Below are positions 12,239-56,487 of a DNA stretch of 64,000 bases, one piece after another. Made by a program: the position numbers and the translations under genes. The stretch spans positions 2,055,276 through 2,119,275 of the forward strand of contig NZ_JAKELO010000002.1 of NCBI RefSeq assembly GCF_028912405.1. Reading direction: 5' to 3'. Source of the stretch: Methanogenium marinum (lineage in GTDB: Archaea > Halobacteriota > Methanomicrobia > Methanomicrobiales > Methanomicrobiaceae). The notes under the pieces were generated by a model that was not told the DNA's origin, did no database searches, and saw nothing but the letters and a program-made list of their open reading frames with translations. Positions within the stretch are counted from its first letter, which is position 1. Each line of letters starts with the position of its first letter.

Positions 12239-12243
12239 GACAG

Positions 12244-13443: not shown

Positions 13444-13446
13444 TCC

Positions 13447-13454
13447 TTTTTTTT
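13447..13454 (+). terminator. Oligo-T transcription terminator after rbcL
   Basis: A run of eight T begins four bases after the RuBisCO stop codon. Archaeal transcription often ends at T-runs without a hairpin. It is in the right place to end the isomerase-RuBisCO transcript. Confidence 0.5.
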
Positions 13455-13601
13455 GGAGTTCCTGATCGATGGGAATTTTATCCCCCGATGACATACAAGG
13501 AGATAGGTAATTCTCTCTATTGTCCGTGCTGTTTCTGCCCCCTCTCCCGATAGTGGGTTTTGCAGCACTGTGATGAGGATGGGAATATCAGGAGAGTTGT
13601 T

Positions 13602-14423
13602 ATGGAAATTCCATTTGTCAAATTACAGGGTAATGGTAACGATTTTGTGCTTGTCGATGAAATGGGAGGATTGGTCATCCCTGATGAAATGAAGGGCGAA
13701 TTTTCCCGATTTTACTGTGACAGACGCTTTGGTGTTGGTGCGGATGGTGTTCTTTTTTTGTCTCCCTCTGATTCCTGTGATGTACGGATGCGTCTCTTCC
13801 AGCCGGATGAGAGCGAGGCTGCGATGTGCGGTAATGGCATCCGCTGCCTTGCCAAATATGTTTATGATTCAGATATTACCGGTGAAGAATGCACTGTTGA
13901 GACACAGGCAGGGGTAATGGCAGTTACCATGTCTTACAATGCTGAGGGTGGATTTACGGCAACAATTGACATGGGTCCTGCAAAATTTTCTTCATCTGAA
14001 ATCCCCGCCAAAGGAGAGGGTGACTTCAGTATGGAATATAACGGACTCACTGTTTATGCGGCAAACACGGGTGTTCCACATGCGGTTGTCTTTGTCGATG
14101 ATGTTGCAGCAGTAAATATCACTGAAGTGGCACCCGGTATCCGTTCACACCCGGTATTTCCGGAAGGTGCCAATGTAAATTTCGTCCAGTGTGACGGTAC
14201 AGACAGTATCACCATACGAACATTTGAGCGCGGTGTGGAGGATGAAACCTATTCGTGCGGCACCGGTTCAACAGCATCGGCAGCTGTGGCGCATCATCTT
14301 GGAAAGATGCCTTCTACAGTCCACGTGCAGACGCAGGGTGGACCGTTGACAATAAAAATGAACAAAACGGTGACGATGGAAGGTCCGGCAGTTACTGTAT
14401 TTGGGGGATTTATTCCTCTCTGA
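13602..14423 (+). CDS. dapF: Diaminopimelate epimerase
   Basis: A 273-aa two-domain epimerase that interconverts LL- and meso-diaminopimelate in lysine biosynthesis. It has FVKLQGNGNDFVLVD at the start, the two catalytic Cys in AAMCGNGIRC (Cys 76) and TYSCGTGSTAS (Cys 219), and the ANVNFV segment. The start is ATG 13602, preceded by AGGAGA with 6-7 bases between; a longer reading from 13560 would add residues not seen in the family. No other lysine gene is adjacent. The 3' end overlaps the end of radB on the opposite strand by 14 bases. Confidence 0.95.
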   Translation: MEIPFVKLQGNGNDFVLVDEMGGLVIPDEMKGEFSRFYCDRRFGVGADGVLFLSPSDSCDVRMRLFQPDESEAAMCGNGIRCLAKYVYDSDITGEECTVETQAGVMAVTMSYNAEGGFTATIDMGPAKFSSSEIPAKGEGDFSMEYNGLTVYAANTGVPHAVVFVDDVAAVNITEVAPGIRSHPVFPEGANVNFVQCDGTDSITIRTFERGVEDETYSCGTGSTASAAVAHHLGKMPSTVHVQTQGGPLTIKMNKTVTMEGPAVTVFGGFIPL

Positions 14424-15087
14424 ACCCTTTTTCTTCAATAGTAAATGTTATTTCGGCTCCTTCGGGGCGAGATCGGTGTTTTTCGAGAATTGCACGCCTT
14501 TTTGAATCATTTCTTTCAAACCGTACAATTATCTTTGACATATGGTGCATGCTGGTACCGCCAAGACCACGAAGATTGTCAGTTCGGATGTCGGTAAATA
14601 CCTGATTGGTAATAATCACCGGGATATCATACCGACGTGCATACCCCAGGAGCATAATGAGTTCACGTGCCAGGCGTTTCTGTGGTTCTCCGGATGGGCC
14701 GTTTTCGGTCCTGTACAGTGCGGTTGCAGAATCCAGGACAATCAGGCCAATGTTATTTCTGTCTGCTAAGAGGCGGGCACATTCTGCAATTGCATGATCC
14801 TGCCCGGTGAAGTCTGCGGGTTCATACAGCATGAGGCGCTCTGCAAGTGACTCAGCCTCATCAACTCCTGCAAGCTGGCAGAACCGGTCAATGGAGAACC
14901 CTTCGGTATCAATGTAGATGACATCTTCTCCATTGCGCAGAGTAGCAATTGACGCTGCCATTGCAGCCGTGCTCTTTCCTGAAGCAGGTTCTCCATAAAA
15001 CTGGATGATAATGCGAGTCTCAAGCCCGCCGCCTATCAGACTGTCCAGGCAGGGGATGCCTGTGCTCTTCTGTTTCAGTGTTACCAT
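14410..15087 (-). CDS. radB: DNA repair and recombination protein RadB
   Basis: A 225-aa RecA-superfamily protein consisting of the core ATPase only, lacking the N-terminal domain of RadA: Walker A GEPASGKST at residues 32-40, Walker B LIVLDSATALYR, and IPVIITNQVFTD. RadB is the euryarchaeal RadA paralogue that acts as a recombination mediator. Its ATG is joined to the larC stop in TAATG, so the two are translationally coupled. The C-terminal end converges with dapF with a 14-base overlap. Confidence 0.93.
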   Translation of the reverse strand: MVTLKQKSTGIPCLDSLIGGGLETRIIIQFYGEPASGKSTAAMAASIATLRNGEDVIYIDTEGFSIDRFCQLAGVDEAESLAERLMLYEPADFTGQDHAIAECARLLADRNNIGLIVLDSATALYRTENGPSGEPQKRLARELIMLLGYARRYDIPVIITNQVFTDIRTDNLRGLGGTSMHHMSKIIVRFERNDSKRRAILEKHRSRPEGAEITFTIEEKGFREE

Positions 15088-39436: not shown

Positions 39437-40684
39437 TTATTTATTCAGCCTCTGTACAACGAACAGTGCTCCAAGTGCTGTGAATATTCCTACACACATG
39501 GGAAGCCCTGATGTTGTGGGTGTTGGTGACGAAGGTTCCGGAGATGCAGGTGTTGCTGCAGGTGCATCAGTAGAACTCGGTGTTTGTTGAGAAACAGTTG
39601 CTTCCGGAACGGATTCCGTATTCCCAAAGGTCATAAGTGCATAGGAGCCGGATTCTGATATTTCTGCAACAAGTGCATCCCCTCTCAGTTCTGTGGGGAG
39701 CATGGTCCATGTTTCGTCTTTGTACTCAGCAATAAACCGTGCATTTGTCTTCATGCTGTCATCACCGGTAATTGCAAATTCAGCAGGTTCACTGAATCTG
39801 AGTGATTCAGGTGATATGATATATGCGCCGTAAACCAGTTCCCATTCATCCGGTATGTCCTTAGGATGGGAGTTTTTCATAATAAGGGCATCTTCAATCT
39901 CTGCACCGGAAACAGTTTCTCTCAGTGCATTGAGCGTTGCATATCCATCACTTGAAGATATAGAGAGGTCGGTGTCCGGGGTTGCTGTGGGGTTTGGTGA
40001 ATAATCGTCACTGTCATCGCTGCTTCCTGATGGTGACTGTGTAGGAACAGTTGTTGGGATTACATCCCCGACCTGTATTTTTTGATTTAATGCTTCAGTT
40101 CCGTCAACTGATACAATAATGCTGACTGTTCCCTGTTCCATATCGTTAATAGTGTACGAGATTGTTGAGTCGTCATCTCCTGATTTTATTCCATCCAGTT
40201 CAAATGAAACGGAAACCTGGTTTGTATCCTCAATGGCTTTTCCTGATATCTCAAGCATGGATATCTCAGATCCCTCGTTGATCTGTCCCAAACTTTCCTG
40301 ATCGCTAATTATCCCACCGGGTGCCGGGTGTTCATCACTCCAGAACTGGAGACTTTTGATTGGGTTTTCAGGGTCCTGCTGGTATCTGAATTTCGCCCAT
40401 ACTACTGATTCTGCCTGAAGTGTGACTGTTGTGTCAGAGAGAGCAAAGGGCATATTCAGATTATTGGATGAGAATGCAAATTCCAGATTCTCATCTGGGG
40501 CAATTTCCGCACCAATATGCATGGAATAAGAGCTGCTGTCTTCAAGTCCCTGAATCGTTACGGTTATTTGTCCCCCTTCCTGTATCTGGTCTGGTCCTGC
40601 GGTTATTGAAAGTGCCTGTACTCCACCCGCAATAAATGCAAGAGCCAGAATACACAGAAATGTTCTGTAAATTTTTTGCGTCAT
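39437..40684 (-). CDS. Anchored surface protein
   Basis: A 415-aa exported protein. It has a signal peptide (KIYRTFLCILALAFIAGG, cleavage after VQA), a beta-rich domain (SITAGPDQIQEGGQITVTIQGL) like those in other methanogen surface proteins, a Ser/Asp/Thr/Pro linker at about 215-240, a second domain ending in ETWTMLPTELRGD and ESGSYALMTFG, and a long Pro/Thr/Ser stalk ahead of a C-terminal membrane helix (LPMCVGIFTALGALFVVQRLNK). The second domain resembles the one near the end of the protein at 51182. The function is unknown; attachment to the membrane with the domain outside is clear. It is transcribed away from the cohesin-dockerin operon. Confidence 0.75.
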   Translation of the reverse strand: MTQKIYRTFLCILALAFIAGGVQALSITAGPDQIQEGGQITVTIQGLEDSSSYSMHIGAEIAPDENLEFAFSSNNLNMPFALSDTTVTLQAESVVWAKFRYQQDPENPIKSLQFWSDEHPAPGGIISDQESLGQINEGSEISMLEISGKAIEDTNQVSVSFELDGIKSGDDDSTISYTINDMEQGTVSIIVSVDGTEALNQKIQVGDVIPTTVPTQSPSGSSDDSDDYSPNPTATPDTDLSISSSDGYATLNALRETVSGAEIEDALIMKNSHPKDIPDEWELVYGAYIISPESLRFSEPAEFAITGDDSMKTNARFIAEYKDETWTMLPTELRGDALVAEISESGSYALMTFGNTESVPEATVSQQTPSSTDAPAATPASPEPSSPTPTTSGLPMCVGIFTALGALFVVQRLNK

Positions 40685-41255: not shown

Positions 41256-44200
41256 ATGGATTCATTTGTGAAAAAATGCATTTTTGTGTCTTTTGCATTA
41301 CTCGTTCTTATTGCGTCCGCGTCAGCAGCGCAATTTGACGGTGATGGAACTGGCGAATATGTGATTGTAGACCCCCCCGAGGAGGGTGGTGGGGAACGTA
41401 TCCCGGTATTTCTGGTCATGAGTGACCAGCCAACCGGGACTATGTCTGTACAGACGATGAAAACTACTGCTGTGTCACAGCAGGAAATGGCAATGAATTC
41501 GCTTGCCGGAATTGATTCCTATGCTGCAGAGACTGCACAGTCATTCTGGATTGTAAATGCCATTCGTGTGGAGGCATATCCGTCAGATCTGGACAGGCTT
41601 GCCTCGCTGCCCGGCGTAGATCATATCGAACGTGATTTCATCGTGACAGTGACTGACCCGGTAGTTGAGACGATGAATGAGGTCTCTCCTGATTACATTG
41701 AGGATTCAACAGAAGAGACTGGTGTGGTCTGGAGTGCAGATTATATTAATGCACCATCTGTTTGGGATACCGGAAATCTTGGTGCCGGAGTCAGTATCTC
41801 TATTGTTGACACTGGTATTGACGGCGACCATCCTGCCTTTGGCGACCGGATTGTTGCCTGGGCTGATTTTGTCAATGGTAACAATGAAACACCATATGAT
41901 GACAATGGTCATGGCTCCCACTGTGCTGGCATATCTGCCGGAGGTGCGGTGGAAACTACCTATTATAATGGAGATCTGATTGATGTGACGCTGGGAGTTG
42001 CACCCGGTGCAAACCTGATGGGTGCGAAGGTTCTCAACTCAGCAGGCAGCGGATATAATTCAGATATTCTGAAAGGTGTAGAGTGGTCGGTTGACAATGG
42101 GGCAGACATCATCTCCATGAGTCTTGGAAGTTTTGTGGGGCCGTGGGAAGATGACTTTTCTGATGAAGAAATTGTTGGGACTCTTGGTGGGAATTCGTCT
42201 GTAGATGTAGTCATCGAAACAGCTTCATCATATAATGTATCCTGGGAACCACAGTTTATTGTTGGTGCTGTGTATGCTGACAGTTCGGCTATCGATGAGA
42301 TTATCAGTGGTGGTAATCTGACCTTTGCAGTAACTGACGCAAACGGCGACACTGCCACAGGCAGTGCAATCGACTGGCTTGGATTTGACACCCCTTCGAA
42401 TATCTACTACTTCAAAGCACCGTATGCAGACAATGCAGGTGCATGGAGGGGCGACTGGAAAGCGACACTGACAAACAATGTCAATGAGAGCGTTGATATT
42501 GAAAAAATCCGCATTGCAGTATGTTATCAGTCTAATGGGCAAGACGCCTTTTCATTAGCGCTGAACAACCTCGTGGAGCAGGGTATAACTGTTGTTGTCT
42601 CCGCCGGAAACGATGGTGAATATGGCCTCGGTACAATCGGAACCCCGGGTACCGCAGAGGATGTCATCACCGTTGGTGCCACCGAGTACATGATGGACTA
42701 TCTGGCGACATTCAGCAGTATGGGCCCGGTGGACTCAGATGATCCCTATGTCAAACCTGATGTTGTTGCTCCGGGCGTAGGCATCATCTCTTCATATATG
42801 GATGGAGGATATGCAATCCTTGACGGAACATCGATGTCGACACCTGCGGTGGCAGGAGCAGCAGCCCTGATGCTTGCAGGAAACAGCAGTCTGTCTCCTG
42901 ATGAAATTAAAGACGCCCTGATGTCTTCTGCAGTTCACATCGATGAGAATGGTGCTGTTCATGACACAATGGTGATGAACAATGCGTATGGTGCCGGACG
43001 AGTGAGCGCCTATGAAGCTGTCAATGTAACAGGTGGTCTTGGGAACACCCCGATTGGTGATGGTGTTGTTTATGAACTCTTTGGCGGTGCAGTATCAGAA
43101 GGTTATGATGTCTATGGTGATGTGCTGCCTGTTACCGCAGTCGCATGGAATGTCACCGGTGGCGTACCGATGGCAGGTGAAGAAATCGAATTTTCTGTCC
43201 GGAGAAACTCGTATGGTCTTCCCTATGACTATGTGAACAAGACGGTAGATACAGATTCATCAGGAAATGCCCTGACAACAATGGATCTTTCAGGGTATGA
43301 GGATGAGACGTCCCTGATGTTACGTATTGCCTGGAATGATCATGTAATTAATGAGTATCATTTCAAGACAGTTCCTTCGGAACATTCAGTCGGTGACTTT
43401 GTCTATCGTAATGGGTGGTACAGGGCAGCACCGAATGACACCGTGCTCATTAAGTATCCGTTACTCAATCCCATTGGGACACCATACACAGATGCCGTGG
43501 TATTGACACTTAACAACTCTGGGTCAGATGTGTATACCGAGACGATTTCCCCGGTTGCCGGAGTAGTGGCGACAGAACTGAATCTCAGCGCAATTCCTGG
43601 TGCTGCAGATGAGTATGGATACAATTCCATTTATCTGGATGATGTGAATGTCGGTTCGTTAAACGTCAATTCCGAGGACTATGACTATTATGAATTAATG
43701 ATTTCTCCGGAAAAATCAATTTGCAGTCCGGGTTCTTCAATTGACATCAGTGCAGTCATTACATCCGGTCATTACGGGAACTCTGCCAGTACTACAGCTA
43801 CTGCCACGGTGGTGACATTCACTGAGACTCTGGTAAATTCCCTCACGACAGAAGAACGCAATCTGCTCCTAGGAGAAGAAATCACATCTCTTGCAGAATT
43901 GGAAGCTGAAATTCAGGGTATGGATGAAAATGAATATTCTGAAAATTTCGCGATGAACAGTGGTATTGGTGTCTATCATCTTACCATGCCGGAGGATGCA
44001 TATCTTGCATTGGTGTATGTTACAACACCGCTTACACCGTATTCTTATGAGAGTGCGGCTCTGGTATATGGTGAACTAACACCGTGGATACAGCACAGCA
44101 CCACTGAGAGTTATTTTGAGATTCCGTACAGTGAATTGACCTACCTCAGTAGAACTTCATCAGAATGGTCTGCAACATGGGATCAGGAAGAATATGAAGT

Positions 44201-46568
44201 TGTTCCTGCAGATGAGGCATCACTTGGCTTCACTGTGTATACCTATGCCCTTGATGAGGCTACGAATTCTTATGTCGGAGAACCTGCTTCAGACCGAACT
44301 GTCTATCTCTACACCAGAGATGGTGCATTAAGCGCCACCACCGGAACGGATGGTACGTGCATCTTTACCCTCACTCCAGGTGAGACGGATGATGCGGGCT
44401 ATGAATACCTTGCAGTGACCGGCGGTGTGGATATTTATGGTAATATATATGATAGGGCATCTCCGTTATATCCTGAATCGGGTTCAAGAATATTAGCAGA
44501 TCTGATTGCCTTTGAACCAGTGGTTCCGTCGTATCATTCCTACCTATACGCGGATACGGTAAGCCGTACTATCTCGGTTGTGGCAGACAATGATACACGC
44601 ACGATAACCATTGCCAGCAATGGTCCTGATGATGAATCCATCCAGGAAAAAGGGATATTTACCTTTGATAAGCTGGGAGCATATTTCTCCTCTTCCGGCA
44701 CATTCGATGCTTCAACAGTGGCGTTTGATGGAACATACAGTAAATCTGTGGAAGTGCCCGAAAAGGGATATTACACGGCTGAATTTAATCTGCTGAACCC
44801 GGTTGAGGGAAATCTACAGTATTCAGGCACAACATTCACAGACACATCATATACCCTGACATATCCAATCATGGATGATCTGCTCCTGGGCCAATCTGTT
44901 CCGGTAACCTTCACGCTCATGGATCATAATGGAAATCCTGTCCAGGGTGCAAAGGTACTCTTTAAACTGGGTGCCGGAGCAGGATATGATTTGTATTCAT
45001 ATGGGGTATATGGAGATCCAAGAGAAGAAAATATCTGGACTTATCTGGGAGAATATCCGGATCCATACAGTCAGGTGTATACCGGGTCCACAGACACCAA
45101 TGGTCAGTTGATTCTGACGTTTGTTGCACCGACATCTGCAGAGCAGGCATACCGGGAAGAACTCGGCAGTTCCAGTTCAGTGGATTATCAGGTTGTCTGC
45201 ATCTATGATGATATGCTTATTTCCTCAGGATATGGGTATTTCATGCCGGTTGCAGGAGAATTGCCTGATTTCGTGCCAAGTGTGGATGCACCAGATGTAG
45301 TCAAGATTAACCGTGATGACAGTATCCGTGTGGATAACCTTGGTCTTCTTGTGAAAAATGTAGGGACTGCTGATTATATTGATAGCGGCATAAATGTTCA
45401 GGTGGTAGCGGAAGTTGCCAGTTATAAAAAAGAAACATCGTTCAGTCACAGCGTTCTGATAGGGGAAACTGCAGAAGTGCTCTACCTCAACGTGGATGAA
45501 GATGCTGAGACGTATGGAATTGATCCTGAAACAACCAGTTTTCCACAGGATAAAACGGTGAAAGTAACTGTAAATCCTGAACCTCGGGCAGTAGAAGAAC
45601 TCCGCTATGACAACAATGTCTATAACCACAATCTGAGGATCACAGCCCCTGATTTGGTAACAGAGGTAATCACACCTGCAGCAACGACTCAGTTTGTTGT
45701 AACACCAATCGGTGTGAAGGTTACAAACGCAGGGGATGTCGCAAGTGTGGCAACAACCCTGAGTTATTATATCACCGGCACTCCGGATGAACCCCCAATT
45801 GCAATCGCTGCTCTTGAAGCCGGTGAATCCACCACTATCTGGAGGAATGGCACCCTTTCAACAGGTACATATGAGATTTCTGCCGCGGTCAACCCTGGTC
45901 ATGTGACCGATTATGAGACGTCATACACAAACAATGAGGATACACGAAATCTCATTTCCTATGCTGAAGCACCGGCATCAATTGTGCTGCCCCAGAATAG
46001 TGTGTTTGTTCCGGGTACAAGCCTGGAAATACCCATTGTTGTGGAGGATGGTGCAGACCTTGCAGCCTATCAGATGACCTTCAGCTACAATGCTTCCGTA
46101 ATCGACGTTTCAAATGTTGTTTCAGGAGATGTTGATCTGACCGGGGTAAATCTGCAGGATGGGTATGTGATCTTTAATGGTGCCCAGACGAGCGGTGTAA
46201 GCGGCAGTGTGACCATTGCCACCCTTGTAATAGATGTTATCGGAAGCACCGATGATGAGACGCTTCTTACGATTTCGAATGCAGCAGAATTATGGGACAT
46301 AAATGGTTTCGCTGTGCCTGTCACTGTCACTGACGGCAGTGCAACACTCCTTCTCTATGGAGATGCGAATGATGACGGCGTTGTAAGTCAGGCAGATACC
46401 CTGAAAGTGCTTAAATGGGTTGTTGGTCTTGACACAGATAAACCAACAATCGGTACACGTCTCTTACAGACAGATGTCACAAAGAACAGCCATGTGGACG
46501 TGGGTGATGCAATGTTTATCGCCCAGTATAATGTGGAATTGAGGGATGAATACTTCAATATCCTCTAA
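41256..46568 (+). CDS. Secreted subtilisin-like protease with CARDB, cohesin-like and dockerin modules
   Basis: A 1770-aa exported protein. Signal peptide to about residue 22 (cleavage ASA); propeptide of inhibitor I9/fervidolysin type at 45-130; S8 peptidase with Asp 185 (IVDTGIDGDHP), His 219 (NGHGSHCAG), oxyanion Asn 452 (SAGND) and Ser 526 (GTSMSTPAVAG), so all catalytic residues are present. An insertion of about 200 residues lies between His and Asn. A long beta-rich region follows, then two CARDB-like domains (about 1336-1570), a cohesin-like domain (about 1575-1697) and a C-terminal dockerin (about 1702-1765) with calcium loop D-A-N-D-D-G-V-V-S-Q-A-D from Asp 1703. No membrane anchor: it is probably held by a cohesin on another protein. 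First gene of a four-gene operon. Confidence 0.9.
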   Translation: MDSFVKKCIFVSFALLVLIASASAAQFDGDGTGEYVIVDPPEEGGGERIPVFLVMSDQPTGTMSVQTMKTTAVSQQEMAMNSLAGIDSYAAETAQSFWIVNAIRVEAYPSDLDRLASLPGVDHIERDFIVTVTDPVVETMNEVSPDYIEDSTEETGVVWSADYINAPSVWDTGNLGAGVSISIVDTGIDGDHPAFGDRIVAWADFVNGNNETPYDDNGHGSHCAGISAGGAVETTYYNGDLIDVTLGVAPGANLMGAKVLNSAGSGYNSDILKGVEWSVDNGADIISMSLGSFVGPWEDDFSDEEIVGTLGGNSSVDVVIETASSYNVSWEPQFIVGAVYADSSAIDEIISGGNLTFAVTDANGDTATGSAIDWLGFDTPSNIYYFKAPYADNAGAWRGDWKATLTNNVNESVDIEKIRIAVCYQSNGQDAFSLALNNLVEQGITVVVSAGNDGEYGLGTIGTPGTAEDVITVGATEYMMDYLATFSSMGPVDSDDPYVKPDVVAPGVGIISSYMDGGYAILDGTSMSTPAVAGAAALMLAGNSSLSPDEIKDALMSSAVHIDENGAVHDTMVMNNAYGAGRVSAYEAVNVTGGLGNTPIGDGVVYELFGGAVSEGYDVYGDVLPVTAVAWNVTGGVPMAGEEIEFSVRRNSYGLPYDYVNKTVDTDSSGNALTTMDLSGYEDETSLMLRIAWNDHVINEYHFKTVPSEHSVGDFVYRNGWYRAAPNDTVLIKYPLLNPIGTPYTDAVVLTLNNSGSDVYTETISPVAGVVATELNLSAIPGAADEYGYNSIYLDDVNVGSLNVNSEDYDYYELMISPEKSICSPGSSIDISAVITSGHYGNSASTTATATVVTFTETLVNSLTTEERNLLLGEEITSLAELEAEIQGMDENEYSENFAMNSGIGVYHLTMPEDAYLALVYVTTPLTPYSYESAALVYGELTPWIQHSTTESYFEIPYSELTYLSRTSSEWSATWDQEEYEVVPADEASLGFTVYTYALDEATNSYVGEPASDRTVYLYTRDGALSATTGTDGTCIFTLTPGETDDAGYEYLAVTGGVDIYGNIYDRASPLYPESGSRILADLIAFEPVVPSYHSYLYADTVSRTISVVADNDTRTITIASNGPDDESIQEKGIFTFDKLGAYFSSSGTFDASTVAFDGTYSKSVEVPEKGYYTAEFNLLNPVEGNLQYSGTTFTDTSYTLTYPIMDDLLLGQSVPVTFTLMDHNGNPVQGAKVLFKLGAGAGYDLYSYGVYGDPREENIWTYLGEYPDPYSQVYTGSTDTNGQLILTFVAPTSAEQAYREELGSSSSVDYQVVCIYDDMLISSGYGYFMPVAGELPDFVPSVDAPDVVKINRDDSIRVDNLGLLVKNVGTADYIDSGINVQVVAEVASYKKETSFSHSVLIGETAEVLYLNVDEDAETYGIDPETTSFPQDKTVKVTVNPEPRAVEELRYDNNVYNHNLRITAPDLVTEVITPAATTQFVVTPIGVKVTNAGDVASVATTLSYYITGTPDEPPIAIAALEAGESTTIWRNGTLSTGTYEISAAVNPGHVTDYETSYTNNEDTRNLISYAEAPASIVLPQNSVFVPGTSLEIPIVVEDGADLAAYQMTFSYNASVIDVSNVVSGDVDLTGVNLQDGYVIFNGAQTSGVSGSVTIATLVIDVIGSTDDETLLTISNAAELWDINGFAVPVTVTDGSATLLLYGDANDDGVVSQADTLKVLKWVVGLDTDKPTIGTRLLQTDVTKNSHVDVGDAMFIAQYNVELRDEYFNIL

Positions 46569-46586
46569 TTTTATGGAGTGGTTTAG

Positions 46587-49500
46587 ATGAAAAATATGAA
46601 ATTATGTATTATTGCCCTCCTCTGCTTTGCAGTATTATGTAGTGCTGTTTCAGCGGCAACTCTCTCTATTGATCCTTCTGAATCAATAATCAATAAAGGA
46701 GAGTCTGCAGAACTTACGCTGCGGGTAGATGATGTTGAGCAACTTGGAAGTTTTGATATTGATGTCACCTGGAACCCTTCTCTGGTATCTTTATCAGATT
46801 CGGATGTAACAGCAGGGCCGTCGATTGACTCGTTAGAGATGAATGTTCAGAGTGGCCGTGTACGTGTTGCAGGCCTGAATTCAACTCTTGAGGGAATATC
46901 CGACAGCGCTGATTTATGCTATCTGTCGTTCACCGGTTTAAGTGACAGTGGTGAAACGACATCTGTTTCGATATCGGTGAATGATTATGGTTTTTTAAAT
47001 TCAACGTCCGGTGAAGACATTGAAGTAACGGATATAACAAACGGCAGTATCACCACGACAGTTTCAAGTGTCGTTGATGCACGTATCGGTATTTCCAACA
47101 GACAGGTTCCGGTAAATCAAGAGACTCTCTTCCGCGCCAGTGTTGCAAACCAACGCAGTTATGATACCTCTGCTCTGAATGTCAATGTAACCATTGCAAA
47201 AGATGGTGCTGTTGTCCAGAGTGAGACCTATCCTGATGTTACCATTTCCGCAGGAGATACTTATTCCGAAGAAATTGCATGGACACCAACAGCAGGGGGA
47301 ACATATCTGGTTAGTATCGCCGTAACCTCAGATGATGCTCTCAGGGGCAGCCCAACTGATGAAAAAATAGTTTCGTCGATTGACTACCAAATAAGCTTCC
47401 CTGATGGACAGGTATATGGTACGGATCGTGCGCAGACTGACAACTGGTTCTACAATTATGTCCGGGTTAGTGCGAATAAGGCAGGTCCGGTAAATTTAAC
47501 CATTGATGCACCGGATTCCTTTGAAATCTCTGGAGGGAAAGAACGGACTACATATCTCTATAACAGCCAGTGGAATTATCTCTATGTCTGGATGAAATCA
47601 AATGAACCAGGCAGTTTCAGTGGAGCTGACTTTTCCTACAATCTATCAGCAAATGGAAAAAGCGCTTCTGTTAATGGTAATGATCTAACAGTTTACGTTC
47701 CTTCAATCGAGGTAACATCAGTCAGTTCAGCTCGAGTATCTGACCTGGGCACGTCGGATACTATCAATTTTAACACCCTCCATACAAACAACACCATCCG
47801 TAATGTCACAACGATTGTGGCACAGTCAGGTGCACAGGGACGAACCCTTTCCGGGCTTGGATATCTTGTTGGGTATCCGTATGGCTGTGTCGAGCAGACC
47901 ACATGCAAGATGCTTGCATCGATGAATGTGAAGGATTACTATCTCGGGCGTGGAGATCGGCCAAGTGACTTTGATACAATCCGTGAACAGGCAAATGAGT
48001 CTGTCAGTGCCGGAATCGATGTACTGGTAAATGGTGGACTTCGCGGTCAGCATGATGATGGCGGATGGAGTCTCTGGGGCTATGGCCTTTCAGAATCATC
48101 GTCCAGTTCGTATGCAAGCTACACTCTTGCAAAGATAAACCAAACAGATGAAGACTTAAACCGCCTGCTTGAAGACAAGATCTCTAATGGTGATACGGTT
48201 ACTACGGGAACTGTGAACTTTGAGAAACTTATCGAGTGGTTCCACGAGAATCCTGATACTGCTGAAGGTACATGGTCCTGGAGTGCTCCTGTCTGCCATT
48301 CATGGACAAAGGAATCCAACACGGCGTTTGTCATGGTCATCCACGACATGATCAACCAGTCAGGGGATGTCCAGCAGCTGTATCGTGGCTACATGGAAGA
48401 GAACATGCAGAATGCGACGAAGTATGTCATTGGTAACCAGGTTAATAGTGGACCTGATGAAGGTTCATTCTCCTCTGGCAGTGACAAGAATATGGCAACT
48501 GCACTTGGTCTGTGGGGTCTGGAATCCTTTGGTCTGCCATCCAGCACAGTAACCGAAGCAGGTATTACTGATGCAAAAGAGAATGCTGCGGCTTATCTTG
48601 TTGGAAGTCAGGAAGTAGATGGTTCATGGTCGGCAGCTTCTAACTATGGATGGAATTCCAAAGGCCGTGTTACCGAGAGCACAGCTTATGCACTTCTTGC
48701 CCTGAATGCAACAGGAGTTGCAAATGATAATGAAACTATCAGTAAGGGTGTTGGCTGGCTTGTTGATACCTATGAGAGCAGTGGAAGCTGGGGATATACC
48801 TGGGCAAGTCAGGCAGCAATTGATGCACTAATTGTATGCCAGGGAAGTGAGATCTCTACCGGAACCGTTGGTGTATATGTTGACGGAGACCTGGTGAACA
48901 CGTTCACCATGGATGCAACCAATCCACGTGAAGAGTACACACTCACCTCTGCCCAGATGACAGCGATGATGGCAGATGGCACTGAAGAAAGAGATATCTT
49001 CGGTGATGGCTTCAGCACGGTGAGATCACACGAAGTGACCGCAGAACTCACCGCAGGAGACGGTCCTGTTGTTCTCTCTGTTGAGAACAGCCAGTGGGCA
49101 CCACTCAATGAAATTGACAGTACAATCAGAAACTCGCGTCTAATCCAGATGGAGGGTGTCGATGAGAGTTTCGAAATTCCTCAGATTAACACAAATATTG
49201 ACATCCTTTCGGAAGTTGAATTAGATGTCGGAGGATTTTCTCTTACGCTGGACTCAGTTCCTTCCCCAATGGTGGTAGATGAAGCAACGGATGTTAGTAT
49301 AGGCGTGATCTCGGATGCAGACCTGTTCTCACCGATGATTGAAGTTCCTATTGCAGACTTCTCCTTTGTCAACACATCTGATATCACCGATAGCAAAGGA
49401 GCTTCGGTAGCCTATGAAGTCCTTAACAGTACTGCAAATGAGAACCAGGATTCAATCTTCATTGAGCCGGAAAGCTGGGTGCAGGGCACTGCATACTCAT

Positions 49501-50411
49501 ATACATTTGAAATTGTTCCGGAAAACTATGGAACACTCAATATGTCATTGCGGATTATTCCGTTGTATGATGACAGCAATGTTGCATACACCAGTCATGA
49601 CTTCGATGTGACGGGAACGGGCAATGTTACCATCCATGTTCAGGATGAGAATTATGCTCCGGTTGTTGCAGACAGTATTACTGTTGACGGTGTCACTGTC
49701 ACCGATCAATCGACCAATGAATTTAGTGACCTTTTCGAGGATACCTATCAGTTCAGTGTCACCAAGTCCGGATATCCGGATGTAAGTGGTACCGTCGAGA
49801 TCAATTATGGTGAGAATGCTGTCTACAATGTAACCCTTCCCACGACAATGACCGAACCTGTTCTGATTCTTTCAGAGGGTGGTTCCGGCAGCATTGCAGG
49901 TGTGGCGCAGATCCCGGCAGAACAACTGAATGCTTTGAATAGCGAGAATGCTATCTACAACATCTCCGTGATGGGAGATGGCGGTGAACTTGGTGTTGCA
50001 CTTCAGTTCCCACAGCGGTATCTTGTCAACAGTCCGGTTGTAACACTGAACGGTGTTGTGCTTGGTGAGGATGATTATGAATTAACTCCGGGAACGTTTG
50101 TATACGGAGATGCCGGAGCATACACGACTACCAATGCAACGCTTGTTGTCTATAACACACCTTCAGGCACCAATTATATTGGTATGGAGTTTGATGGCGA
50201 CGTTCTTGGTGATGCTACGGGTGAAGGACTAGTAACGAGTCGAGATTCATTATTTATCCTGAACTTTGTTGTTGGCAATATTGGTGGATTTGATACCTTT
50301 GATTACCCTGATGTTGTCGACAGGGATGCTCATTCAATTACATCACGTGATTCACTTCTGATACTGAACAGAGTTGTGGGTAATGTCGATGAATATTATC
50401 AATGGAGCTAA
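46587..50411 (+). CDS. Secreted alpha-2-macroglobulin-like thioester protein with cohesin-like and dockerin modules
   Basis: A 1274-aa exported protein: signal peptide to about 23 (cleavage VSA); cohesin-like domain 24-155 (LSIDPSESIINKGESAELTLR); CARDB-like domain about 165-265; then LVGYPYGCVEQTTCKMLASM at about 428-447, the thioester site of the alpha-2-macroglobulin family with Cys 434 and Gln 437. Residues 455-755 form an alpha-toroid (HDDGGWSLWGYG, VDGSW, SSGSWGYTWASQAAIDAL) as in thioester domains. The C-terminus (about 1208-1270) is a dockerin with repeats VTSRDSLFILNFVVG and ITSRDSLLILNRVVG; the first calcium loop is complete (from Asp 1209), the second is one residue short. The N-terminal macroglobulin domains and bait region of classical members are not evident. 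GGAG lies 8 bases before the ATG; 18 bases after the protease gene. Confidence 0.85.
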   Translation: MKNMKLCIIALLCFAVLCSAVSAATLSIDPSESIINKGESAELTLRVDDVEQLGSFDIDVTWNPSLVSLSDSDVTAGPSIDSLEMNVQSGRVRVAGLNSTLEGISDSADLCYLSFTGLSDSGETTSVSISVNDYGFLNSTSGEDIEVTDITNGSITTTVSSVVDARIGISNRQVPVNQETLFRASVANQRSYDTSALNVNVTIAKDGAVVQSETYPDVTISAGDTYSEEIAWTPTAGGTYLVSIAVTSDDALRGSPTDEKIVSSIDYQISFPDGQVYGTDRAQTDNWFYNYVRVSANKAGPVNLTIDAPDSFEISGGKERTTYLYNSQWNYLYVWMKSNEPGSFSGADFSYNLSANGKSASVNGNDLTVYVPSIEVTSVSSARVSDLGTSDTINFNTLHTNNTIRNVTTIVAQSGAQGRTLSGLGYLVGYPYGCVEQTTCKMLASMNVKDYYLGRGDRPSDFDTIREQANESVSAGIDVLVNGGLRGQHDDGGWSLWGYGLSESSSSSYASYTLAKINQTDEDLNRLLEDKISNGDTVTTGTVNFEKLIEWFHENPDTAEGTWSWSAPVCHSWTKESNTAFVMVIHDMINQSGDVQQLYRGYMEENMQNATKYVIGNQVNSGPDEGSFSSGSDKNMATALGLWGLESFGLPSSTVTEAGITDAKENAAAYLVGSQEVDGSWSAASNYGWNSKGRVTESTAYALLALNATGVANDNETISKGVGWLVDTYESSGSWGYTWASQAAIDALIVCQGSEISTGTVGVYVDGDLVNTFTMDATNPREEYTLTSAQMTAMMADGTEERDIFGDGFSTVRSHEVTAELTAGDGPVVLSVENSQWAPLNEIDSTIRNSRLIQMEGVDESFEIPQINTNIDILSEVELDVGGFSLTLDSVPSPMVVDEATDVSIGVISDADLFSPMIEVPIADFSFVNTSDITDSKGASVAYEVLNSTANENQDSIFIEPESWVQGTAYSYTFEIVPENYGTLNMSLRIIPLYDDSNVAYTSHDFDVTGTGNVTIHVQDENYAPVVADSITVDGVTVTDQSTNEFSDLFEDTYQFSVTKSGYPDVSGTVEINYGENAVYNVTLPTTMTEPVLILSEGGSGSIAGVAQIPAEQLNALNSENAIYNISVMGDGGELGVALQFPQRYLVNSPVVTLNGVVLGEDDYELTPGTFVYGDAGAYTTTNATLVVYNTPSGTNYIGMEFDGDVLGDATGEGLVTSRDSLFILNFVVGNIGGFDTFDYPDVVDRDAHSITSRDSLLILNRVVGNVDEYYQWS

Positions 50412-50413
50412 TA

Positions 50414-51130
50414 ATGTGGAATAAAAAATTTATAACCCTTTTATTAATTTTCACCTTTTTTTGTTTAGTCTCTAATGTGGGTGCTGCAGACGTAGCACTT
50501 GAAAACAATACACTGCTGGTAAAAGGAGTCGATGACAGCATCGGTCTTGGGGCTTTTAGTGTGGTCCTGACCTATAGTGGGAATCTAAGCGTACAGTCTG
50601 TGGAGGGTGAATCAGGGTTTATGGTTGCATCAAATATCCAAAATACTAAATATGAGACTTTTATTGCTGGGATATCCGGCGAGGGTCTGACTGGTGATAT
50701 TCCGGTTGCCTCCGTAAGCACAACAGGTTCAGGAGTTATTGAAGTATCAGTAAGGGAACTCGTAAATGTGAAAGGAGACCCGATTTCTTTCACAAATGAA
50801 GAATTTATTGGTGTTGTGCCTACTCCGGCAGCCGGTGATGAAGATGCTATTCCTGACATTTATGTTTCAGATTCCGAAGAAAATCCTTTAGAACAACAGG
50901 TTACAACAACAGCAACAACGCCGGAAGCGACCGTGAGTGAAACCGAAATTCCTGTTGATACTATTGTTCAGACTCCGGCATCTGCGACACAGGTATCATC
51001 TGAAGATAATGATATTCCGGTAGTTCCGGATACAAATGAGAAGACAGTTCCGCCAACACAGTCACCGTTTAATATCGTTATTGTACTAATTGCAATTGGA
51101 AGCGTATTTATATTAAAAAACGAAAAATGA
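50414..51130 (+). CDS. Membrane-anchored cohesin-like protein
   Basis: A 238-aa protein. Start ATG 50414 has GGAG 6 bases upstream inside the end of the previous gene, from which it is separated by 2 bases. It has a signal peptide (KKFITLLLIFTFFCLV, cleavage near GAA), one cohesin-like beta domain (about 25-145; SIGLGAFSVVLTYSGNLSVQSVEG, then SVRELVNVKGDPI), a Thr/Pro/Glu-rich stalk of about 70 residues and a C-terminal helix (FNIVIVLIAIGSVFIL) followed by KNEK. A single cohesin on a stalked anchor is the arrangement expected of a cell-surface receptor for dockerin-bearing proteins, such as the two encoded just upstream. The binding pair is inferred. Confidence 0.8.
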   Translation: MWNKKFITLLLIFTFFCLVSNVGAADVALENNTLLVKGVDDSIGLGAFSVVLTYSGNLSVQSVEGESGFMVASNIQNTKYETFIAGISGEGLTGDIPVASVSTTGSGVIEVSVRELVNVKGDPISFTNEEFIGVVPTPAAGDEDAIPDIYVSDSEENPLEQQVTTTATTPEATVSETEIPVDTIVQTPASATQVSSEDNDIPVVPDTNEKTVPPTQSPFNIVIVLIAIGSVFILKNEK

Positions 51131-51181
51131 TTCATGTTAGATAATTCTGGTAGAATTGGCTTGACAAAGAAGGTATGAGAG

Positions 51182-54100
51182 ATGACGAATCAAACCAAAA
51201 GGATTCTGGCTGTTCTAATTGTCCTGTTATTATGCGTAACGGGAGCAACTGCAGCTGGAGAAGGTACGCTATCCGCATCTGATGTCGCCGACGTGGCATT
51301 GGGTGAGAGTGGCGTAGTGACGTTTACGTTAACAAATGACTTTGACCCCAAAGTAGGTACGTTGACGTACAGAGTGTATTATGATGAGACAATCGCTACG
51401 GCGGCTAGTACAGAAACTATTGTTAATGGAGGTGTTGCGCCGGGAACACTGAATAGTGGGATGACATTTACTCTGTCTACTACTGCTGGTGTTGACAACA
51501 ACGATGCAGACCTTTTTACTGTTTCTTTCACCTCACCCAAAAATGATGGAAGCCGTATGGATGTTGGCATCGTAGCAAGTGAAGCCTATGATACAACCGG
51601 TATGACGGATTATCTGGGTGATATTACCATTGTAAACGGCACCTTCACCACAAAGGATGAAGTGGCTCCGGTCGGGACCATTACAACTCCAACCAATGTC
51701 GGTAAAGACTTCAAGATAACAGGTACTATTACCGATGTTGGTGGTATGGGTTCAGCAAGTGCAATCCTTGACGGAACGAACTACCCGCTCGCTCTCACTA
51801 ATTCGGCCAACGGTGAATACTTGTACACCGCTGATGTATCATGGCCTGAATTTGAGGATGGTATTACGCTGACTGTCAATGCAGTGGATGCAGCAGGAAA
51901 TGTTGCAGAACCTCTGGCTACGAAAACAATTAATGTTAAAAACATTGGTTTCTCCGACCCTTCACCTGCAGATGGAAGTTACATCAATACTGAACCCTCA
52001 CCAGTTAAGGTATTCATGTCACAGATTGACACGACTACCGTGGTTATGACTTTGGGCGGTGCCGTTGGCCCGATGGTTATTGATGATGTTTCATTTGTCT
52101 CCGGATACGCAATTGGTGACATTGGTCTCCATGGTGATGGTCTATTCTGGGTGAATGTAACCGGTACTGACACAGTTGCAGCAGAAGAGCGCTTCCTCAA
52201 CTGGACGTATACCGTTGACACATCTGCTCCAACACTTGACGTGGCAATCACTGATTCTGATGGTGACGGATTTATTGAAGCAAATGAAGTCCTGAACTTT
52301 GACTGGACAGTAAGTTCTCCAGGTCTCAGTGGATTTAAGAATGTCTCAGTTGTTGAGCCATCCACAGGCAGTGTTCTGTTGTCAAACGGCAATGCGGATA
52401 GCAGCGCTACACTAACTATACCCGTTGGAAACCGTGACCTCTCATTCCGTGCATATGACAATGCAGGAAATTATGCAAAATACGATTTCCATCTGTATAA
52501 CAACTATGTTGTATGGGTAGACTCAACAAAGGTTGGCACAATTGGTGGACTTGATACAGAGTTTACCGCAGCAGTTGACCTTGACCTGACAGCAACCAGT
52601 ATGGTAGAACTATACAACGGTCGCAGTGTTTTTGCACCCGACATTGGAACTGTCACACGGCAGGTCAAAGAGGTAGGTCAGGTAACAAGTGACACCTATG
52701 TCACCGTTGACAACCGTGCTGATGCAACATATGCAGGCACAGACACATACCAGGAACTCTGGGTGTATGACCCTACAGACGTCATTGATTTCGAGATAAC
52801 TGCTCCTGCAATCACACATGCAAGTGTTATGATGTTTGAGGCAAACGAATCATACCTCAATGAACTCATTGACAGTAAATCAACAAGCAACATCGACTAT
52901 GAACAACTGATTAAGCAAGCATCCTACATCTTCATTGATGGGGGATGGACACAGATTTCTGTTGAGAAAGATGGTTCATTTATTCAGGAACAGGCATATG
53001 GTGAAGCGCTGACAGTATCCGGTGACATTACAACAACGTTGAAGCTCGCTGAAAATCAGGTGGATCTTTCCTCCGGATTCCGCATGAGTGAAGATTGTGT
53101 TCCATTTGATGCAACAACCACTCCTGATATCGGTGACTATGCAATTGCAGCAATTGCCTTTGATGGCGACCGTATCGGTGGCATTGCAGTAATGCCGGTA
53201 GTTGTCCTTGAGTCAGCAGAAGAAGGTGTGCTCTCCGCTACCAGCATACCTTTAGACGGAACCTTTGATGCAAGTTTCAGTTCCGACTGTAAGTATTTCG
53301 GTGTCGCTCTTTACCGTGACACAGTGTATGATGCAACAGCAACTATTGATTTCGCGAATCTTAATTATGACATGGTTACCTTAGACCTCTCAGCAGGTGG
53401 GGCGGCCACAGAGAAACTCTGGCATAACATTTATATCACCCCTGGTGCAGGAAAATATGCATATGTTAATGCTGACAATTCGCTGACATTCGATGCTAGC
53501 GGTCTTGAAGCAGGCAATTACAAGGCGGTTCTTGCTGGTCTCAGTAACAGTGGCACAGCACAGGCATTCGGTGTTCACGACATTGCGATCGGTTCCAGTC
53601 TGAATATCAGTAATATCATCGCCCAGACGGGTACAACTGGTGCATCAGTCACCTGGACGACCAACAATGCAGCAAACAGTACTGTTGAATACGGCCTAAC
53701 CAGTGCATATGGATATTCTGTATCTGATGCTCAGTTTGTCACTAGACACACCTTGGGTATCAACGGTCTTACGTCCAACACGGTCTATCATTATCGTATA
53801 ATCTCGGTTGACCCATCCGGAAACAAAGTTATTTCCAGTGATTCTTCCTTCATAACCAAGTCCTCCGGCAGTAGCGGCGGTGGCGGCGGCGGCGGTAGCT
53901 ACACAAGTCCAGTGGAAGTTACAACGCCATCTGTGAAATTTACCACACTCGGATATCTACAGACAGATTCGAATGGTATAGTCCAGAACCCCGTATTGGT
54001 CTCTGCAGCTGATGGCCTCTCATCAATCTATATCGGAGCTGGTGTGAAGGCACTTGATGCCGACGGACAGCCTCTGGATAGTGTGATTATTCAGGGAACT

Positions 54101-54547
54101 GACGATGTTCCATCAACAGGTTCATTTTCATTTGCTGGTCACGCAGTGGAATTAGGACCATCAGGGGCAACCTTTAGTCCGGGGATTGAGTTAACATTCC
54201 AGTTTACAGAAGAAGAGTGGAATAATCTTGGAGCAGGAGAAACATTCGCAATTAAGTGGTTCAATGAAGGAACAGGTGAATGGGAAGCTATTCCAACCAC
54301 CGTTGATCCTATCAACCATACGGTTGTCGGTGTGATTACCCACTTCAGTACATTTGCTGTCTTCAAAGAAATTGGAGAAATGCCAACTAGTGTTGCAACA
54401 CAAGCTCCAACAGAAACCCCGGTGCCTACCGAAACTGGTAATGGTGCTCAAACCGGCGGATTCCCATGGGTATGGTTTGTTGTAGTAATTGTGATGGTTG
54501 CCATAATTGGCGCTGGATATTACTACATGCAGCAGCAGAAGAAATAA
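51182..54547 (+). CDS. Large anchored surface protein with cohesin-like and fibronectin-type domains
   Basis: A 1121-aa exported protein: signal peptide to about 24 (cleavage ATA); cohesin-like domain about 25-160 (LSASDVADVALGESGVVTFTLT); Ig-like modules to about 430; a middle region resembling S-layer-associated domains; a fibronectin III/purple-acid-phosphatase-N-like domain at about 815-890 (GASVTWTTNNAANSTVEYGL); a Ser/Gly linker with seven Gly in a row; a domain ending HFSTFAVFKE; a Thr/Pro stalk; and a C-terminal helix (FPWVWFVVVIVMVAIIGAGYYY) with basic tail. It lacks a dockerin, so fits a large anchored scaffold. Last gene of the operon, 51 bases behind the smaller cohesin protein. 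A T7 run follows the stop. Confidence 0.82.
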   Translation: MTNQTKRILAVLIVLLLCVTGATAAGEGTLSASDVADVALGESGVVTFTLTNDFDPKVGTLTYRVYYDETIATAASTETIVNGGVAPGTLNSGMTFTLSTTAGVDNNDADLFTVSFTSPKNDGSRMDVGIVASEAYDTTGMTDYLGDITIVNGTFTTKDEVAPVGTITTPTNVGKDFKITGTITDVGGMGSASAILDGTNYPLALTNSANGEYLYTADVSWPEFEDGITLTVNAVDAAGNVAEPLATKTINVKNIGFSDPSPADGSYINTEPSPVKVFMSQIDTTTVVMTLGGAVGPMVIDDVSFVSGYAIGDIGLHGDGLFWVNVTGTDTVAAEERFLNWTYTVDTSAPTLDVAITDSDGDGFIEANEVLNFDWTVSSPGLSGFKNVSVVEPSTGSVLLSNGNADSSATLTIPVGNRDLSFRAYDNAGNYAKYDFHLYNNYVVWVDSTKVGTIGGLDTEFTAAVDLDLTATSMVELYNGRSVFAPDIGTVTRQVKEVGQVTSDTYVTVDNRADATYAGTDTYQELWVYDPTDVIDFEITAPAITHASVMMFEANESYLNELIDSKSTSNIDYEQLIKQASYIFIDGGWTQISVEKDGSFIQEQAYGEALTVSGDITTTLKLAENQVDLSSGFRMSEDCVPFDATTTPDIGDYAIAAIAFDGDRIGGIAVMPVVVLESAEEGVLSATSIPLDGTFDASFSSDCKYFGVALYRDTVYDATATIDFANLNYDMVTLDLSAGGAATEKLWHNIYITPGAGKYAYVNADNSLTFDASGLEAGNYKAVLAGLSNSGTAQAFGVHDIAIGSSLNISNIIAQTGTTGASVTWTTNNAANSTVEYGLTSAYGYSVSDAQFVTRHTLGINGLTSNTVYHYRIISVDPSGNKVISSDSSFITKSSGSSGGGGGGGSYTSPVEVTTPSVKFTTLGYLQTDSNGIVQNPVLVSAADGLSSIYIGAGVKALDADGQPLDSVIIQGTDDVPSTGSFSFAGHAVELGPSGATFSPGIELTFQFTEEEWNNLGAGETFAIKWFNEGTGEWEAIPTTVDPINHTVVGVITHFSTFAVFKEIGEMPTSVATQAPTETPVPTETGNGAQTGGFPWVWFVVVIVMVAIIGAGYYYMQQQKK

Positions 54548-55500: not shown

Positions 55501-56487
55501 ATGACAAAATCTCCAACAACAGAAGATCTCTACACAGCATTTGGAACAGGAATCTGGTTTCGCGATCTCGTGGGAATACTGGTCTGGTTAGGCATCGCTG
55601 TTCTGACAATATATGTACCCTATCTGAATGAAAGTCCGCTAAGAATTGTGTTTGCACTTCCGGTTGTGCTCTTTATTCCGGGATATGCGCTCATTGCGGC
55701 ACTGTTTCCCGGAAATGAAGAAATTGATACTCTTGAACGAATTGCACTCTCATTTGGATTATCAATAGCGGTGGTGCCGCTGATTGGGCTTGCACTGAAT
55801 TATACTCCCTGGGGAATACGGCTGGACCCGATCGTCATTTCACTGGTTATCTTCACCGTCCTTATGGTGCTCGCGGCCCACTGCCGGCGTGCACTGCTGG
55901 CACCGGAAGAACGGTTTGCCATGCCTGTACAGTCCTGGTGTACGGAAGCAAAGACAGAACTCTTCTCCGAAGACCAGAGTACCCTTGACCGTGCCCTTTC
56001 CTACATCCTCATTATTGCAATTGTGGCGGCAGTTGTCACTACCATATACGTAATTGTTGTGCCCAAGGAGGGTGAACATTTCACCGAATTTTATATTCTC
56101 GGAGAAGGAGGGATGGCAGCGGATTATCCTGACCGGTTAACCGTGGGGACTCCACAACCGGTGATCATTGGTGTTGGGAATCATGAATTCAGACCAGTAG
56201 ATTATACCATTGAGGTCTGGGAAATGAATCAGGAATGGATTGCCGAAGAAAACCGTTCTGAAATATATTCTATGGGACTTTTAGACCGGATTCCGGTCTC
56301 GGTGCCTCACAATGAGACAACTGAGATTCCCTACAGCTTTACCGTAACCGATGGTGGAACAAATAGAATTCAGTTCCTTCTCTTCACGGATACGGTGCCT
56401 GATGATTCAGTCTCAGGGACGGAACGGATCAATGCCTCGTATCGGGACCTTCATCTCTGGGTGGATGTTCGTCCTTCATACGGGTAA
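55501..56487 (+). CDS. DUF1616 membrane protein
   Basis: A 328-aa protein with four N-terminal membrane helices (about residues 24-42, 48-68, 82-100, 110-130), the ALPVVLFIPGYALIAALFP block typical of DUF1616, a further helix at 165-190 and an extracellular C-terminal domain of about 140 residues (EFYILGEGGMAADYP, TPQPVIIGVGNHE). DUF1616 proteins are common in archaea next to surface-glycan or surface-protein genes; their role is unknown. AGGT lies shortly before the ATG. The 3' end overlaps the tail of the minus-strand gene 56429-57232 by 59 bases. Confidence 0.88.
   Translation: MTKSPTTEDLYTAFGTGIWFRDLVGILVWLGIAVLTIYVPYLNESPLRIVFALPVVLFIPGYALIAALFPGNEEIDTLERIALSFGLSIAVVPLIGLALNYTPWGIRLDPIVISLVIFTVLMVLAAHCRRALLAPEERFAMPVQSWCTEAKTELFSEDQSTLDRALSYILIIAIVAAVVTTIYVIVVPKEGEHFTEFYILGEGGMAADYPDRLTVGTPQPVIIGVGNHEFRPVDYTIEVWEMNQEWIAEENRSEIYSMGLLDRIPVSVPHNETTEIPYSFTVTDGGTNRIQFLLFTDTVPDDSVSGTERINASYRDLHLWVDVRPSYG

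Follow-up and report, generated by a model that had tools for sequence, protein, structure and literature searches.

Among described systems, the nearest in layout to the operon reported here is the hierarchical cellulosome of Clostridium thermocellum, which combines an anchored cohesin, a scaffoldin that has its own dockerin class, clients bearing another class and symmetric dockerin repeats. Non-cellulosomal pairs are known from Archaeoglobus fulgidus and from the secreted glycosidases of Clostridium perfringens (NagJ), and scaffoldins with several cohesins and a dockerin have been reported in anaerobic methanotrophic (ANME) archaea, where the usual clients are ABC-transporter binding proteins and where no thioester or protease hub features in the source's account of these proteins (PMC9012536). 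Archaeal thioester (TED) domains with a CxEQ motif have been described in Methanomicrobia and Halobacteria, encoded close to endoproteases and surface proteins, and a complement-like role was proposed for them (PMC8416519). The text of that paper on these neighbourhoods mentions no cohesins or dockerins, although its Figure 3B and supplementary tables may list some such loci. Here, we describe a four-gene operon of Methanogenium marinum (assembly of 2.24 Mb, 81% complete) that lies in a 64,000-nt stretch of contig NZ_JAKELO010000002.1 (the window, to which all coordinates refer) and encodes cohesins, dockerins, a protease and a complement-type thioester domain. We found no description of this operon, or of cohesin-dockerin modules combined with a thioester protein, in the literature searched. 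By analogy, its layout appears to be that of a hierarchical cellulosome and its working part a complement-like covalent device with proteases, and its predicted binding would place it with the non-cellulosomal cohesin-dockerin assemblies.

The operon consists of four consecutive plus-strand open reading frames (ORFs), as follows.

41256..46568 (+): gene 1 (g1), secreted subtilase of 1770 amino acids (aa); Pfam S8 (9e-51), CARDB and cohesin matches, triad motifs, no C-terminal hydrophobic segment
46587..50411 (+): gene 2 (g2), secreted thioester scaffoldin of 1274 aa; Pfam TED above cut-off, hidden Markov model (HMM) matches to CD109, C3, cohesins and dockerins, AlphaFold and Foldseek
50414..51130 (+): gene 3 (g3), small anchored cohesin protein; AlphaFold fold, profile-profile comparison, transmembrane (TM) segment
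51182..54547 (+): gene 4 (g4), large anchored protein of 1121 aa; HMM of the N-terminus, profile-profile comparison, TM segment

With the ATG of gene 3 at 50414, the intergenic gaps are 18, 2 and 51 nt, in agreement with the original prediction; the longest gene 3 ORF begins at 50402 and overlaps gene 2 by 10 nt. All four proteins carry a cohesin, which is combined with a dockerin in genes 1 and 2 and with a C-terminal membrane anchor in genes 3 and 4. A C-terminal hydrophobic segment was present in 24/25 homologues of gene 3 and 24/24 of gene 4, which also have a signal-like N-terminus, and in 0/23 homologues of gene 1 and 0/25 of gene 2, so that the dockerin-ended pair indeed lacks membrane anchors, as first proposed. 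The proposed division into anchored receptors and dockerin-bearing ligands was not clean, because genes 1 and 2 have cohesins of their own.

Gene order, for which the original prediction had called for a survey, was followed through 232 Methanomicrobiales genomes. Genes 2 and 3 occurred in the same 25 genomes, always adjacent (a gene 2 fragment was found in addition), and gene 4 came next in all 25 carriers, although in one of them it is truncated where the contig stops. Genes 2-3-4 are thus collinear in 25/25 carriers, which is far beyond chance. A subtilase-dockerin gene lay upstream of gene 2 in 21 of the 25 (L101 has a different subtilase; labels of this kind are our handles for genomes and loci). 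Two lineages of the operon could be distinguished: in the near lineage gene 2 carries a single cohesin, and in the distant lineage it carries two or four, which makes it a genuine multi-cohesin scaffoldin there. Some genera contain both lineages (G011/G016, G121/G122), a sign of horizontal transfer of the operon. Outside the order, the complete four-gene set was found in one genome (L171) from a different family of this phylum, and a split version was found in a haloarchaeon (L172). A full gene 2 relative was present in 1/40 genomes of the L171 family, and in this set we found no support for assigning the known A. fulgidus pair to the same operon. The named matches in a contig search with gene 2 were two metagenome-assembled genomes (Methanogenium and Methanomicrobiaceae) and Methanoculleus sp. 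FWC-SCC1.

The evidence for the four cohesins came from sequence profiles and predicted folds.

45969..46355 (+): gene 1 cohesin, residues 1572-1700; PF00963 24.4 bits, above the gathering cut-off; profile-profile match to the g2 cohesin, E 2e-16
46650..47066 (+): gene 2 cohesin, residues 22-160; PF00963; matches PDB cohesins down to E 1e-9
about 50477-50827 (+): gene 3 cohesin, followed by a Thr/Pro-rich stalk and a TM segment (about 51059-51115); AlphaFold fold, profile-profile comparison
51257-51661 (+): N-terminal cohesin of gene 4, followed by Ig/FN3-like repeats, a conserved C-terminal domain and a TM segment (about 54458-54514)

Profile-profile comparison united the four domains in one family (E 2e-16 to 4e-5), and control domains taken from these proteins (Ig, CARDB and FN3) matched the cohesins with E values of at least 0.03. 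The Pfam match in gene 1 spans residues 1577-1695, directly ahead of the dockerin, and the N-terminus of gene 2, once excised, scored 34.4 bits against a cut-off of 24.1, with 20/25 homologues also matching. Gene 3 was not identified as a cohesin by Pfam or PDB sequence searches; its AlphaFold model (pLDDT 88, pTM 0.79) had as its top PDB match the A. fulgidus non-cellulosomal cohesin 2xdh, most of its top PDB structural matches were cohesins, and its profile matched the g2 cohesin (E 8e-7). The N-terminal HMM of gene 4 matched the C. perfringens NagJ cohesin (2jh2; E 1.6e-5) as well as cellulosomal cohesins, and this domain matched the g2 cohesin with E 1e-13. The closest folds and profiles to the anchored cohesins are thus those of the non-cellulosomal pairs, which involve other enzymes and no thioester protein. 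The fold check on gene 3, named beforehand in the original prediction, accordingly returned an archaeal cohesin, and the HMM check placed genes 1 and 2 above the PF00963 cut-off; the N-terminal cohesins proposed for genes 3 and 4 are real, and those of genes 1 and 2 had been missed.

Both secreted proteins end in a dockerin, as had been proposed.

46356..46565 (+): gene 1 dockerin (D1), residues 1701-1770; scores 17.4 bits with PF00404, under the cut-off
50193..50402 (+): gene 2 dockerin (D2), residues 1203-1272, with internal symmetry; matches a PDB dockerin at E 1.7e-6

The profiles of the two domains matched each other (E 1e-16), and the gene 2 profile matched solved dockerins, with the duplicated calcium-loop/helix repeats present in HMM and alignment. 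Two dockerin classes were recognised. D2 is confined to gene 2, and D1 is carried by gene 1 and by further secreted proteins, some encoded beside the operon and some at other genomic sites; each of the 28 client dockerins compared (28/28) was nearer to the D1 of its own genome (53-72% identity) than to the D2 (27-37%). The D1 clients of this genome include another subtilase (L135) and a protein with an NHL propeller (L134), and those of relatives include papain-like proteases with lectin-like domains, NosD-type helices, and PEGA and GLUG proteins; cohesins in the client set and in homologues were counted with an iterated home-made cohesin HMM. Dockerins beyond the operon's two genes were found in 22/26 operon genomes compared to 7/206 others (Fisher p 6e-21, ignoring phylogeny). 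In L028, the protease slot is filled by a four-cohesin protein with a D1 dockerin and without a protease (11892-14654, minus strand), and this genome had 20 dockerin matches at a looser threshold.

No glycoside hydrolase or carbohydrate-binding module was detected in the four operon proteins or in 17 dispersed clients scanned. Compared to the cellulosome of C. thermocellum, the operon therefore lacks cellulases and carbohydrate-binding modules among the parts scanned, has a thioester domain within its scaffoldin and archaeal anchors, and in the near lineage has a scaffoldin with a single cohesin. The presence of subtilases and of papain-like proteases with lectin-like domains among the clients could instead indicate a cellulosome for protein, which would degrade extracellular protein to feed the community or to scavenge amino acids. 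Most clients are not enzymes, however, and the invariant thioester of the scaffoldin (see below) would be left unexplained save as a substrate-binding device. Methanomicrobiales methanogens are also not known to live on protein, and we regard protein degradation as a rather doubtful function.

Partners were predicted from covariation across 15 near-lineage operons, using distances corrected by removing TED-domain divergence and a Mantel test. D2 covaried with the g3 cohesin (partial r 0.75) and the g4 cohesin (0.70), with Mantel p 2e-4 for each, and showed no covariation with the g1 or g2 cohesins (partial r -0.03); along the operon its signal peaked over the g3 and g4 cohesin domains. D2 is accordingly aligned in its divergence with the two anchored cohesins, to which it is predicted to bind. 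D1 covaried best with the g2 cohesin (0.49), its predicted partner. The two repeats of D2 shared variable recognition-loop residues at 2.32 of 3 positions, compared to 0.47 when shuffled (0/5000 shuffles). Such repeat symmetry is seen in dual-binding dockerins, which bind a cohesin in two orientations (PMC4728124), and the symmetry of D2 is the pattern that would be expected for this mode of binding. D2 (window 50193-50402, plus strand) is strongly divergent between species yet internally symmetric, which suggests fast co-diversification with its cohesins.

These results bear on whether the modules pair at all. The functions of archaeal cohesins and dockerins are mostly unprobed, and several single-sequence scores at this locus fall under Pfam cut-offs, so the modules might be generic surface beta-sandwiches and EF-hand repeats in genes that are merely co-inherited. 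That reading is countered by the covariation of D2 with the g3 and g4 cohesins, by the dockerin symmetry, and by a shared dockerin class that co-occurs with the operon; in addition, cohesin-dockerin binding has been shown in another archaeon, as cited in PMC9012536. We consider it very improbable that the modules do not pair, and formation of an assembly by these proteins is, in our estimation, likely.

The domains of gene 2 follow one another in the order cohesin, Ig, MG/CUB, TED, CUB, MG8-like, PEGA and D2 dockerin (Pfam, HMM and AlphaFold model).

47829..48866 (+): TED (thioester) domain of gene 2, residues about 415-760; Pfam PF07678 above cut-off, alignment to CD109, helical toroid in the model
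47886..47897 (+): thioester motif C434-V-E436-Q437; GCxEQ in 25/25 operon homologues
48297..48299 (+): H571 of gene 2, aligned by HMMER with the CD109 His (putative complement-type catalytic His)

An AlphaFold model of residues 160-1196 (pLDDT 76, pTM 0.50) matched CD109, C3b, TEP1 and bacterial alpha-2-macroglobulin in Foldseek (best E 6e-27). A His at the position of H571 is typical of complement factors and influences the choice of acceptor (PMC7016707); it was present in 17/17 near-lineage gene 2 proteins and absent from 8/8 distant-lineage ones. Elsewhere, the thioester motif appeared as GC plus xEQ in L171 and L173 and as WCVEQ in L172. Gene 2 is thus the alpha-chain-like, thioester half of the complement/TEP/CD109 family, which it resembles in the MG/CUB-TED-CUB-MG8 half, the CxEQ motif and, in the near lineage, a candidate complement-type His. 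Set against C3, insect TEP1 and CD109, it has neither the MG1-MG6 ring nor an anaphylatoxin, and its chain also includes a cohesin and a dockerin. We predict that gene 2 forms covalent bonds, and hold this to be very likely.

The original prediction had called this protein an alpha-2-macroglobulin-like thioester trap. The thioester part of that claim stands, with a complement-type TED and CxEQ in all 25 carriers; its identity as a snap-trap was rejected on domain content because the MG1-MG6 ring and bait region are missing, the model showing Ig/MG/CUB strands alone between cohesin and TED. The same observations weigh on the idea that gene 2 controls proteases, as an inhibitor of alpha-2-macroglobulin type that would trap proteases including gene 1 and so protect the cell. 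Membership of the TED family, constant pairing with a subtilase and the bacterial alpha-2-macroglobulin among the Foldseek matches would fit such a role, which is nonetheless improbable: just the MG/CUB-TED-CUB-MG8 half is present, the ~250 residues from cohesin to TED are too few for an MG1-MG6 ring and bait, and one haloarchaeon has the protease and TED joined in a single polypeptide.

This haloarchaeal protein (L173, 10401-18407, minus strand; 2668 aa) joins a subtilase with intact triad motifs and a TED with GCVEQ in one chain, and is followed by a separate dockerin protein and an anchored PGF-CTERM cohesin protein. The fusion is direct evidence, at the level of gene architecture, that protease and thioester domain act together. 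The L173 layout possibly also explains an uncharacterised gene reported after haloarchaeal TED genes (PMC8416519). In M. marinum, the protease is gene 1, which consists of a signal peptide, an I9-like propeptide region, an S8 domain (about 160-590), Ig-like repeats, CARDB, the cohesin and D1. Its identification as a subtilisin-like protease was upheld by the Peptidase_S8 match (Pfam, E 9e-51) and an intact Asp-His-Ser triad (D185, H219 and S526). Scans of the operon with NCBIfam and PADLOC returned generic subtilase matches alone and no known defence system.

Overall, we favour the reading that the operon encodes a hierarchical cell-surface cohesin-dockerin assembly with a thioester adaptor scaffoldin, which as a whole model is somewhat more probable than otherwise. 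Genes 3 and 4 would be the membrane-anchored cohesin receptors, onto which the adaptor scaffoldin encoded by gene 2 would dock by its private D2, and the cohesin or cohesins of gene 2 would receive D1 proteins, namely the gene 1 subtilase and unlinked secreted clients such as proteases, propellers and adhesin-like proteins. The complement-like thioester of gene 2 would then bond covalently to a nearby nucleophile; the trigger is probably conformational or proteolytic, and the co-docked subtilase is a natural candidate for it. The bond would fix the complex to a target or capture the target, which docked proteases would process, and candidate targets include other cells, virus-like particles, extracellular glycoproteins and the envelope of the cell itself. 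The surface assembly originally predicted was thus supported by the modules, the conserved operon and the anchors, but not in treating protease and trap as equal ligands: the order from anchor to gene 2 adaptor scaffoldin to clients is more likely.

Several observations weigh against this reading. The g3 stalk, outside the cohesin, gave an intermediate D2 signal (0.46-0.53); the D1-g2 cohesin value barely exceeds that of a g2 control domain (0.41); and D2 and the g3 and g4 cohesins are contiguous, so that shared recombination tracts could yield part of their covariation. The D2 of M. marinum has a lengthened, atypical second calcium loop and no Pfam match of its own, and the likeness of its repeats could also be maintained by gene conversion or internal duplication. 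The distant lineage lacks the complement-type His (0/8), and the confidence of the gene 2 model is moderate. The same genome also encodes two giant surface proteins of 3391 and 2625 aa (L136 3141-13316 and L137 2818-10695, both minus strand), with many PEGA (and GLUG) repeats and each with two tandem cohesins close to the C-terminus, and these paired cohesins could be the D1 receptors instead.

The nature of the target separates two further possibilities. In the first, the device would be self-directed: the thioester would cross-link the scaffold to S-layer glycoproteins of the same cell, whose surface proteins the protease would mature, with no foreign target. Every part is secreted or anchored, many clients are of surface type with PKD, PEGA or propeller domains, and a complement-type His, which in complement factors favours hydroxyl (glycan) acceptors, would suit this role (the residue itself is described in PMC7016707). 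The patchy spread of the operon (25/232 genomes) is odd for basic envelope maturation, and the presence of both lineages in single genera (G011/G016 and G121/G122) speaks for transfer and against a core function; we hold a self-directed device to be a minority possibility. In the second, the operon would provide archaeal complement-like capture or defence, in which a surface-docked thioester scaffoldin, activated by a co-docked protease, would become covalently attached to foreign cells, viruses or partners as a tag and could be re-armed with different dockerin-bearing clients; this, too, we put forward with some reserve as a minority possibility.

Two neighbouring genes recur with the operon. 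One is a possible accessory component.

39437..40684 (-): anchored surface protein of 415 aa, divergent neighbour; conserved beside most operons, fusion sequences, TM segment

This protein has no Pfam match and has a C-terminal anchor. In L035 (16829-17665) and L100 (1569-2405), its N-terminal domain bears a D1-type dockerin and not an anchor, as if anchoring and docking were interchangeable for it. The other is a DUF1616 protein (window 55501-56487, plus strand), which recurs beside the operon in several families, including in L102 despite other flanks that differ.

The operon joins the archaeal cohesin-dockerin modules, which have been described as enigmatic, with archaeal complement-like proteins that previously had no known partners. 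Each archaeal module gains a specific predicted partner (D2 with the cohesins of g3 and g4, D1 with that of g2), and its function can therefore be tested by simple pull-downs. The operon also presents a setting in which complement-related, protease-linked covalent capture would work in a single-celled organism.

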